From NCBI GenBank assembly GCA_027310565.1, contig DAIDAP010000032.1, positions 1 through 51,610 of the forward strand: a DNA stretch of 51,610 nucleotides, read 5' to 3'. This DNA is from Chloroflexota bacterium. Its GTDB lineage: Bacteria > Chloroflexota > Limnocylindria > P2-11E. Position 1 is the first letter of the stretch. Each line of letters opens with the position of its first letter. Below the pieces are notes generated by a model. It made no database searches. It was not told the DNA's origin and saw only the letters and a program-made list of their open reading frames with translations. Both the position numbers and the translations under genes were made by a program. Below, piece by piece: positions 12,559-38,271 of the stretch.

Positions 12559-14166
12559 ATGGCCCTCAGCGAGGCGGAGGTCCGCATCCCGCCGTCGGCA
12601 TCCGACACGCGCGGCGTCGCCGAGGGGGTCCTCACCCCGGCGGCGCGCGAGTTCCTCACCAAGCTTCATCGCGAGGTGGAGCCCACGCGGATCGGTCTCC
12701 TCGAGACGCGGCAGCGTCGCTGGCGGGAGCTGCGCGACGGCGCGACGCCCGCCTTCCCGGAGGAGACGGCGGCGCAGCGGCGGTCCGAGTGGCGCGTCGC
12801 CGAGGCGCCGCGCGACCTGCGGGTCCGCAAGGTCGAGATCACCGGACCGACCGATCGCAAGATGCTCATCAACGCCCTGAACTCGGGCGCGTCGGTGTAC
12901 ATGGCCGACTTCGAGGACGCCAACGCGCCCACCTGGCGCAACATGATCGAGGGGCAGCGCAACCTCGTCGACGCGATCCAGCGAGCGATCGAGTTCCGCA
13001 GCCCCGACGGGCGCGTCTACACGCTGAGCGACCGGACCGCGACGCTGGTGGTCCGCCCGCGCGGCTGGCACCTGGGCGAGAAGCACTTCCTCGTCGACGG
13101 CGACCCGATCGCCGGCGCGCTCTTCGACTTCGGTCTCTACTTCTTCCACAACGCCCGACGGCTGCTCGAGAAGGGCAGCGGCCCGTACTTCTACCTGCCG
13201 AAGCTCGAGTCGTACCGCGAGGCGCGTCTGTGGAGCGAGATCTTCCGCTGGTCCGAGGACGCCCTGGGCATCCCGCGCGGCAGCATCCGCGCGACGGTGC
13301 TCGTAGAGGTCATCACCCTCGCGTTCGAGATGGACGAGGTGCTCCACGAGCTGCGCGACTACTCCGGTGGCCTCAACGCCGGCCGCTGGGACTACATGTT
13401 CAGCATCATCAAGAAGTTCGCCGGGCGGCCGGAGTTCACCCTGCCGGACCGCGCGCAGGTGACGATGGCCGTCCCGTTCATGCGCGCCTACACCGAGCTC
13501 CTCGTGAAGACCTGCCACCGTCGCGGCGCGTTCGCGCTCGGCGGCATGGCCGCGTTCATCCCGAACCGGCGCGACCCCGCGGTGACCGAGGCCGCGCTCG
13601 CGAAGGTCCGCGACGACAAGGTCCGCGAGGCGACCGACGGGTTCGATGGCACCTGGGTGGCGCACCCCGACCTCGTCGAGACCGCGATGACCGAATTCGA
13701 CCGCGCGCTCGGCACCAGGCCCAACCAGCTCGACCGCCAGCGTCCGGAGGTGGACGTGAGCGCGCGGCGGCTCCTCGACGTGAAGATCCCCGGCGCAACC
13801 ATCACCGACGCGGGCCTGCGGACCAACGTGAACGTCGGCATCCAGTACATCGCATCGTGGCTGCGCGGGACGGGCGCCGCGGCGATCAACAACCTCATGG
13901 AGGACGCGGCCACCGCGGAGATCTCGCGCTCGCAGATCTGGCAGTGGGTCCACCAGCGGGCCAGGCTCGCCGAGGGACCCACGGTGACGCGCGAGCTCGT
14001 CGCGAAGGTGCGCGACGAGGAGCTCGCCCGGATCAGGACGGCCGTCGGCGATCAGGCCTACGCGCAGGGCAGGTATGACGAGGCCGCCGCGCTCTTCGAC
14101 GACGTCGCCCTCGCCGAGGACTTCGTCGAGTTCCTCACGCTCCCGGGGTACGCCCGGCTGGACTAG
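12559..14166 (+). CDS. aceB: Malate synthase A
   Basis: Condenses glyoxylate and acetyl-CoA to malate, the second step of the glyoxylate shunt, in the cytoplasm. The chain is 535 residues from ATG 12559, close to the usual length of the A isoform. Conserved parts include [30 protein letters not shown], the RPRGWHL segment with catalytic Arg, the ETI-like [13 protein letters not shown] and [12 protein letters not shown]. An alternative in-frame ATG at 12526 has GGCGGAG upstream; 12559 is chosen because homologous N-termini align there. No isocitrate lyase gene is next to it, so the partner enzyme must be elsewhere. The stop codon TAG is the first part of the repeat at 14163-14208. Confidence 0.95.
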
Positions 14167-14208
14167 TGTCGCGATACGGAATACATGTGACTTCCGGGTC
14201 ACGACACT
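14163..14208. repeat. Hairpin copy of the 35.8-kb terminal repeat
   Basis: The right arm TTCCGGGTCACGACACT (14192-14208) is identical to the right end of the element at 35827-36010. The left arm (TAGTGTCGCGATACGGAA, 14164-14181) matches the same repeat in inverse orientation with three differences. The arms are separated by ten bases containing CATGTG, also found next to the repeat at 35.8 kb. The TAG of malate synthase is the first three bases of the left arm. It looks like two element ends with the interior lost, and could also work as a transcription terminator. Confidence 0.7.
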
Positions 14209-14234
14209 GGCGCGGCCTGCGGTACGGTAGTCCC

Positions 14235-35826: not shown

Positions 35827-36010
35827 CTAGTGTCGTGACCCGGAAGTCATGTGCAGATGCGCGGTACCGGGACGCCGAGGCCAAGGAGCCGAGGAGGACG
35901 CACCGGAGCGCAGCCGCGGCTGCGTGAGCAGCGCCCGGACGAAGGCGACACCGGCATCGGCGGATCCGGTACCGATGCAGCTGCGCATGGATTCCGGGTC
36001 ACGACACTAG
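35827..36010. repeat. MITE-like element with 19-bp perfect inverted ends
   Basis: Ends CTAGTGTCGTGACCCGGAA (35827-35845) and its exact inverse complement (35992-36010) enclose about 146 bases with no gene. The match continues inwards imperfectly for about 25 more bases (CATG-GCAG-TGC-GGTACCGG on both arms). CTAG at the very ends is palindromic, so a TA or CTAG target site is possible. The right end gives the TAG stop codon of pcrA at 36007-36009. The same end sequence occurs at 14163-14208. No transposase for it is in the window. Confidence 0.75.
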
Positions 36011-38271
36011 GCCTTCGCCAGCTTCGCGAACGAGGCCATGAGCTTCTTCACGCCCTTGTCCGGGAACGCGACGGTGACCTCCTCGTCGTCACTGCGCAGC
36101 GTGCTGGACACGACGACGCCCGTCCCCAGGGCCGGGTGGCGCACCCTGTCGCCGGCGCGGAACTTCGTCCCGCTCGGCGGCGCCTTCCTCGGCGCCGGCT
36201 CGCTCCGCCCGGTCCAGGCGCCGGAGAGCCCCGCGAGCGCGGCCTCGCGGCGGGCCTCCCGGCGCTCCTCGTAGCGCGCGCGGCCGCGCTCCCAGTCGAG
36301 CTCGGCCCACGCGTCGCGCTCCTCGGTCTCCACCCTGCCGCGCATCTCGACCCCCTCGGCGGGGAGCTCCGTGAGGAAGCGCGACGGCGGGTTGTCGTTG
36401 GTGCGCCCGAACAGCGTGCGGTGCCGCGCGTACGTCAGGTAGCAGCGGTCCATCGCGCGCGTGATGCCGACGTAGCAGAGGCGGCGCTCCTCCTCGAGCT
36501 GGCGGTCGCTGTCGAGCGAGCGCGCGTGCGGGAACACCGCCTCCTCCATCCCGGTGAGGAACACGATCGGGAACTCCAGGCCCTTCACCGCGTGCAGGGT
36601 GATGAGCGTCGCCGCGGGGGTCGCCTCCTTCCACTCGTCCTGGTCGGAGACGAGCGCGACGCGCTCGAGGAACGCGGGCAGCTGCTCGTCCTGCGGGAGC
36701 GTGAGGAACTCGTCGGCGACGGTGCGCAGCTCGAGCACGTTCTCGTGGCGCTCCTCCCCCTCCGGGGTCCCGTCCTTGAGGTAGGTCGCGTATCCGGTCG
36801 CGCCGATGACCTCGTCGATGAGGTCCGGCAGCTCGCGCGCCGGCACGTCGGCACGGAGGCGCTCCAGCAGCCGCCCGAACGACGCGAGCGCGGTCCGCTG
36901 GCGCGCCGGGATGTCGGCGATCTCCTCCGCCCGCGGCAGCGCCTGGGCGGCCGGGATCGCGGCCGCCGCCGCGAACGCGAGCAGGCTCGTCCGCGTCTTG
37001 TCCCCGATGCCCCGCGGCGGGACGTTGAGGACGCGCGCCAGCGCCACCGAGTCCCGCGGGTTGCGCAGCAGGCGCAGGTACGCGAGCACGTCCTTCACCT
37101 CGCGCCGCTGGTAGAAGGACACGCCGCCGACGAGCTGGTATGCGAGGCCGAACGCGCGGAAGACCTCCTCGATGGGCCGCGACTGCGCGTTCGTCCGGTA
37201 GAGCACCGCGACGTCCTTCGTGCTCTTCACCTCGCCGTGCCGCTGCAGCCGCTCTATCTCGCGCGCGATCATCTCGGCCTCGGCGCGCTCGTCGTACGCC
37301 TCGATGACGACGACGGACGGACCGCCCCGACGCTCCGTCCACAGCCGCTTCTCCATTCGCGCGGCGTTGTTGCGCACGATCGACCACGCCGCATCCAGGA
37401 TGCGCTGCGTGCTGCGGTAGTTGCGCTCGAGCTTCACGACCCGGGCGCCGGGGTAGTCGCGCTCGAAGTCGAGGATGTTGCGCACGTCCGCGCCGCGCCA
37501 CGAGTAGATGCTCTGGTCGTCGTCGCCGACGACCGTGAGGTTCTGCGTGAAGCCGGCGAGGTAACGCAGCAGCACGTACTGGGCGCGGTTCGTGTCCTGG
37601 TACTCGTCGACGAGGATGTGCCGGTAGCGGTCCTGCCACCGCTCGAGCGCGCCGTCGCTCGTCTCGAACAGGCGGCACGCGAGGAGCAGCAGGTCGTCGA
37701 AGTCGACGGCGTTGTTCTCGCGCAGGAGCGCGTCGTACCGCGGCCACACGTTCGCCGCGACGCGCTCGAGCGGGCTCCGCGGCGCCTGCGCGAGATCCGC
37801 CGGACCCAGCAGCTGGTTCTTCGCGCCCGAGATGGTCGCGGCGATCGCACCCGGGGCGAACGTCTTCTCGCCGACGCCGGCCTCGGCCATGGCCTGCCGC
37901 AGCACCGCGCGCTGGTCGCCCTCGTCGTAGATGGCGAAGCCGCGGTCGACGCCCACGAGCGGGCCGTCGTGGCGCAGCAGCCGCGCGCAGAAGGCGTGGA
38001 AGGTGCCCACGGTGAGCTCGCCGAGCTGCGACGAGCCGAGCAGGCGCCCCAGGCGGTCCTTCATCTCGCGCGCGGCCTTGTTGGTGAAGGTCACCGCCAG
38101 GATGGCCCGCGGCGGCACCCCGAGGTCGCGGATGAGGTAGGCCACCCGGTGCGTGAGCACGCGTGTCTTGCCGGATCCGGCGCCGGCCAGGATGAGCAGC
38201 GGACCGGCGCCGCACGTCACGGCGGCGCGCTGCTCGGGATTCAGCCGGTCGAGGACCGGGTCCGCGGACAC
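36007..38271 (-). CDS. pcrA: ATP-dependent DNA helicase, UvrD/PcrA type
   Basis: A superfamily 1A 3'-5' helicase for repair and removal of stalled complexes. 754 residues, usual length for PcrA. Motif I is AGAGSGKT (near residue 30), Ia TFTNKAAREMKDR, II VDEYQDTN, III GDDDQSIYSWRGAD, IV ERNYRSTQRIL, V TLHAVKGLEFPIVFLTGMEE and VI RRLCYVGITRAMDR; all are intact. The C-terminal tail (FRAGDRVRHPALGTGVV) is the Tudor-like domain that contacts RNA polymerase in PcrA. The start is GTG 38271. The gene ends with TAG inside the MITE-like repeat, so its natural stop may have been replaced. Confidence 0.94.
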   Translation of the reverse strand: MSADPVLDRLNPEQRAAVTCGAGPLLILAGAGSGKTRVLTHRVAYLIRDLGVPPRAILAVTFTNKAAREMKDRLGRLLGSSQLGELTVGTFHAFCARLLRHDGPLVGVDRGFAIYDEGDQRAVLRQAMAEAGVGEKTFAPGAIAATISGAKNQLLGPADLAQAPRSPLERVAANVWPRYDALLRENNAVDFDDLLLLACRLFETSDGALERWQDRYRHILVDEYQDTNRAQYVLLRYLAGFTQNLTVVGDDDQSIYSWRGADVRNILDFERDYPGARVVKLERNYRSTQRILDAAWSIVRNNAARMEKRLWTERRGGPSVVVIEAYDERAEAEMIAREIERLQRHGEVKSTKDVAVLYRTNAQSRPIEEVFRAFGLAYQLVGGVSFYQRREVKDVLAYLRLLRNPRDSVALARVLNVPPRGIGDKTRTSLLAFAAAAAIPAAQALPRAEEIADIPARQRTALASFGRLLERLRADVPARELPDLIDEVIGATGYATYLKDGTPEGEERHENVLELRTVADEFLTLPQDEQLPAFLERVALVSDQDEWKEATPAATLITLHAVKGLEFPIVFLTGMEEAVFPHARSLDSDRQLEEERRLCYVGITRAMDRCYLTYARHRTLFGRTNDNPPSRFLTELPAEGVEMRGRVETEERDAWAELDWERGRARYEERREARREAALAGLSGAWTGRSEPAPRKAPPSGTKFRAGDRVRHPALGTGVVVSSTLRSDDEEVTVAFPDKGVKKLMASFAKLAKA

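Follow-up and report, generated by a model that had tools for sequence, protein, structure and literature searches.

The window, that is, the whole stretch of 51,610 nucleotides that was analysed, contains a non-coding element whose right tip overlaps the end of pcrA, and a smaller related hairpin at the end of the malate synthase A gene:

35827 to 36010, no strand: full-length MITE of subfamily A, 184 bp, non-coding, running from CTAG to CTAG (aligned with 21 other full-length copies)
35827 to 35845, plus strand: left terminal inverted repeat, including the CTAG target/TSD
35992 to 36010, minus strand: right terminal inverted repeat, including the CTAG target/TSD
35937 to 35961, plus strand: conserved-core segment GGACGAAGGCGACACCGGCATCGGC, found in the own genome only within these elements
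36007 to 36009, minus strand: pcrA stop codon TAG, which forms part of the right tip (four same-genus relatives without the element stop there too)
36007 to 38271, minus strand: pcrA, a UvrD/PcrA-type helicase (NCBIfam TIGR01073)
14163 to 14210, no strand: 48-bp internal-deletion derivative, a hairpin made of both tips, running from CTAG to CTGG
14164 to 14166, plus strand: malate synthase A stop codon TAG, which forms part of the left tip (the same codon is TAA, TGA or TAG in relatives)

The first-pass annotation had described a gene-free element of 184 bp with perfect 19-bp inverted ends and had taken the TAG at the right tip as the stop codon of pcrA. Both descriptions were borne out. The 19-bp end, CTAGTGTCGTGACCCGGAA, is perfect at 35827-35845 (plus strand) and at 35992-36010 (minus strand), and the ORF at 36007-38271 on the minus strand ends with TAG at 36009-36007. 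With up to three mismatches, this end matched four times in the window, versus 0.01 matches expected by chance. The best NCBIfam match of the pcrA product was TIGR01073 PcrA (E = 7.5e-252), but the match lies under the curated cut-off of the model. Folding of the 184-bp strand gave -125.5 kcal/mol, versus -74.7 +/- 4.2 kcal/mol in shuffles. The malate synthase A gene (TIGR01344) ends at 14166, and its TAG belongs to the CTAG at one tip of the smaller hairpin, as had been noted earlier; the hairpin, however, extends over 14163-14210 and not 14163-14208. Compared with the 19-bp end, its left arm (tip CTAG) shows three mismatches and its right arm (tip CTGG) one.

The genome to which the window belongs (2.79 Mb in 38 contigs, 97.5% complete) was searched for the tips with a pattern, and pairing of the tips yielded about 30 CTAG-bounded elements in two subfamilies, A and B. 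The second subfamily was exposed by the tip search and has the tip CTAGTGTCGCGCGCCGGAA. Twenty-two copies (13 A and 9 B) are full-length, at 180-185 bp, and eight are short derivatives (32-70 bp) in which both tips are retained; one copy lies at a contig edge. The family has the form of an IS630-type MITE, being short, non-coding, multi-copy and bounded by terminal inverted repeats. CTAG is present at both tips in nearly all copies, the exceptions being CTGG, CCAG, CTCG and CTAA; this corresponds to the flanking duplicated TA, in the CTAG preferred by IS630, of such a MITE. The copy at L073, with the tips CTAG...CTAA, favours TA over CTAG as the exact duplication, although it does not fix the length. 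At L065, a short copy and a full copy have one tip CTAG in common, an arrangement that is the expected outcome of one element entering the CTAG of the other.

Tiny palindromes of 18-32 bp with both CTAG tips were also seen (L060:2933-2964, L061:3040-3071, a 27-bp copy at L065 and one in L182 near 7128). These are apparently internal deletions of the long palindrome. A strict short-palindrome pattern found only one 32-bp copy, a count limited by the strictness of the pattern. The element had no match in plasmid records, and the exact tip had no match in the genome contig set, from which the own genome is possibly absent.

A separate repeat of 1.75 kb was found beside MITE tips. At L054:28-1778 (G000:C11) it contains an ORF of 529 aa and has CTAG at both borders; further left ends lie at C20:103, at C24:132 and at the ends of C36 and C37. 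Each of the five left ends that are visible adjoins a MITE tip in the same orientation (an A tip in three cases, a B tip in two), and four right ends have unique flanks. The 529-aa ORF has no Pfam or NCBIfam match; proteins 37-40% identical to it, labelled 'hypothetical protein', occur on plasmids of Rhodococcus, Caballeronia and Mycobacterium. The repeat appears to be an IS-like element, so far unclassified, with MITE tips as its target.

Genes were called with a codon-usage caller trained on the window. In 22 of the 30 elements, the TAG of a tip is the exact in-frame stop codon of the neighbouring called gene, and the 32-bp copy at L061 stops both of two convergent genes. The strict count is 20 of 30, with L062 and L074, where the ORFs are short and weakly scored, dropped. 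As a background, CTAG was sampled in 20 stretches elsewhere in the same genome (299 kb), where it occurred 93 times, versus 232 expected from the counts of CTA, TAG and TA and 742 from base composition. Among the 93 sites, 39 were stop codons, 50 were intergenic and 4 were coding. For an element directed to CTAG, insertion at a stop codon is therefore expected in about 42% of cases. The share found among the elements was 73% (odds ratio 3.8, Fisher p 0.0025; p 0.016 in the strict comparison without the two weakly supported genes), and the choice of CTAG alone may leave part of this excess unaccounted for.

The proposal that the element targets CTAG/TAG at gene ends, made from two sites, is thus supported genome-wide, and most copies do not lie far from stop codons. 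It is rather unlikely that, over and above CTAG itself, the same mobile element actively seeks out stop codons or the 3' ends of genes, as it might if it were guided by transcription or by the DNA structure of convergent ends. The excess over random CTAGs would agree with such a preference, but purifying selection against promoter-gene insertions would leave the same excess, and about eight copies are located at a distance from all called stops. Most simply, the excess would have arisen because harmful intergenic insertions were purged.

The interior of the element was compared between the subfamilies. Identity between A and B is about 92% in the central 80 columns and 55-75% in the sub-terminal arms. 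The core, at 35880-35965 in the window and in all full-length copies, shows less divergence between subfamilies and between genera than the sub-terminal arms do, and the total length of the full-length copies stays within 180-185 bp. With the core pattern, the same element of roughly 183 bp was found in several Chloroflexi MAGs, with different tips and a similar core. Tips that change around a conserved core are the opposite of what MITEs usually show. One could imagine that the 80-bp core is functional, for instance in RNA processing or in uncoupling transcription at convergent gene ends, that selection or targeting concentrates and retains the element at stops, and that it has been domesticated as a 3'-end module which swaps its tips as the IS630 transposases change; we regard this as unlikely.

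It is still less probable that the hairpin is a 3'-end signal maintained by the host (a terminator, or an mRNA-stabilising or REP-like hairpin) and not a mobile element. A very stable hairpin immediately after stop codons, and a core that is kept better than the arms across genera, would suit such a signal. The element, however, has no U-tract terminator, in which a GC-rich hairpin would be followed by a T run, and no Rfam model matched it at gathering score, the only matches being sub-threshold and at chance level; a terminator or a known RNA was ruled out on these grounds. The distribution is moreover patchy, the same sites being empty in same-genus relatives, one copy lies within the tip of another at L065, and the tips are IS630-like.

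The question of whether the stop or the element came first was analysed with 17 stop-tip genes, which were compared at the C-terminus with orthologues in four same-genus genomes. Element-free orthologues had the identical stop position in 34 of 61 comparisons (one duplicate locus removed), and these 34 stops were 27 TAG, 6 TAA and 1 TGA. TAG is enriched among them relative to its genome-wide share of 103/278 (37%; binomial p 6e-7), a value that is indicative, since related genomes are not independent. The identical codon is a stop, mostly TAG, in one or more relatives at 11 of the 17 sites that could be compared. In all four relatives pcrA ends with ...AKLAKA-stop (TAG three times, TAA once), and malate synthase ends with ...D-stop. 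The far flanks are syntenic with relatives at 11 element sites, and at the best of these the spacing agrees nearly base for base after deletion of the element and one CTAG; the junction of L075 treated in this way reads CACCAAGCGCTAGTAGCCG, versus CACCAAGCGCTAGCAGCGG in L206. Element-free syntenic sites in same-genus genomes show the mobility expected of an IS630-type MITE. From the identical stops and the aligned junctions in element-free relatives, we therefore conclude that the elements were inserted into pre-existing stops. The stops are usually older than the element, which normally enters an existing stop that the target duplication rebuilds.

These facts bear on the claim of the first-pass annotation that the terminal repeat supplies the stop codon. 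If insertion in or near 3' ends had shortened genes, the tip would be a new TAG. At L055 and L056 the genes of relatives extend 1-19 codons beyond, and to judge from this alignment the tip may have created a new stop there. At most sites, including pcrA and malate synthase, this explanation is contradicted by the stops of element-free relatives; it could apply to a minority only, and as a general account it is very improbable. A TAG at the same place in relatives without the repeat, which had been named beforehand as an unfavourable outcome, was found; it counts against a supplied stop and is predicted if an existing stop is targeted. Chance coincidence, allowed for when only two sites were visible, is ruled out by the match statistics of the inverted ends, the copy number of about 30 CTAG-bounded elements and the stop overlap in 22 of 30.

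The tips were then related to insertion sequences. IS630-family transposases (PF13358) were found in the own genome and in 10 others of 61 searched, and an IS with both ends readable has the form CTAGTG...CACTAG. The tips of IS630 elements in related genomes have 16-20 of 25 bases in common with the MITE tips, versus a shuffled mean of about 10.5, so that the family has tips in common with IS630-family IS of its lineage. The MITE tip of G005, TAGTGGCGTGTCCCGGAATGG, is similar to the IS630 tip of that genome, TAGTGGTCCGTCCCGGAATGG. An autonomous IS630 whose tips are identical to those of subfamily A or B was not found. The sole IS630 of the own genome (C16), which is incomplete at 97.5%, was rejected as the exact parent; its tips are different and have fewer bases in common with A and B than those of the relatives.

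All 12 transposase genes whose 3' end could be read terminate with the TAG of the tip or target CTAG:

L091, L151-L157, L161, L162, L164 and L165: IS630 loci with the transposase stop at the tip/target CTAG

IS870 is a member of the IS630 family. According to the studies as cited in later papers, TA in CTAG is the preferred target of IS630 (Tenzen and Ohtsubo 1991, cited in PMC2170065), and IS870 needs CTAG for its own stop codon (Fournier 1993, cited in PMC6471742). The transposase stops found here agree with what has been published for IS870.

We consider it most probable (about 0.88) that the element belongs to an IS630-family MITE that is mobilised in trans by a transposase inserting at TA in CTAG, and that its niche at stop codons arises from the depletion of CTAG in genes. 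An IS630-family transposase (Tc1/mariner-like, DDE) would move the MITE in trans and insert it at TA within CTAG, and duplication of TA or of the whole CTAG would give CTAG at each end of the copy. Because CTAG is strongly avoided in the genes of this GC-rich genome and occurs mainly as C+TAG stops or between genes, insertions would fall mostly on stops. The host protein would be unaltered, because the duplicated CTAG restores TAG in frame. In full-length IS630 relatives, the same property would yield the transposase's own stop codon at the tip. The family is in this sense an ordinary kind of IS630-type MITE that is cleanly documented, and its association with stops would come mainly from CTAG targeting.

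By such a mechanism, insertion without harm would be simple: a transposase whose recognition word is avoided in genes would deliver its cargo largely at stops, and the duplication would rebuild the stop. Both the host gene in this lineage and the transposase gene of the parent IS terminate at this same CTAG. Annotation calls for caution where gene ends and repeat ends coincide. The prediction can be tested in other GC-rich genomes with IS630 elements.

Among known systems, RUP of Streptococcus pneumoniae, an IS630-Spn1-type MITE for which mobilisation by an IS630-type IS has been proposed, is similar in being about 100-180 bp, non-coding and present in many copies, with inverted ends resembling IS630-family IS and a TA target (PMC2229807). 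It differs in sequence and host phylum, has stops in all frames and tends toward IS-rich regions, and no stop-codon niche is given in that review (PMC2229807). IS630 and IS870 also target CTAG, and the large ORF of IS870 takes its stop from the CTAG target, according to the studies cited in PMC2170065 and PMC6471742; they are, however, autonomous ISs with a transposase gene, whereas here a non-autonomous MITE uses the word and the word serves the stops of host genes. MITEPsy1 of Pseudomonas syringae, as presented in an excerpt of PMC3189936, is a 100-bp MITE that enters CTAG or YTAA and duplicates its target; unlike the present family, it is thought to derive from an IS5-type IS (ISPsy2), and the same excerpt does not describe stop-codon overlap. 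The family found here thus fits as a new addition to the known biology of IS630/IS870 and of RUP-like MITEs, in which the stop-codon niche is unusually clear.
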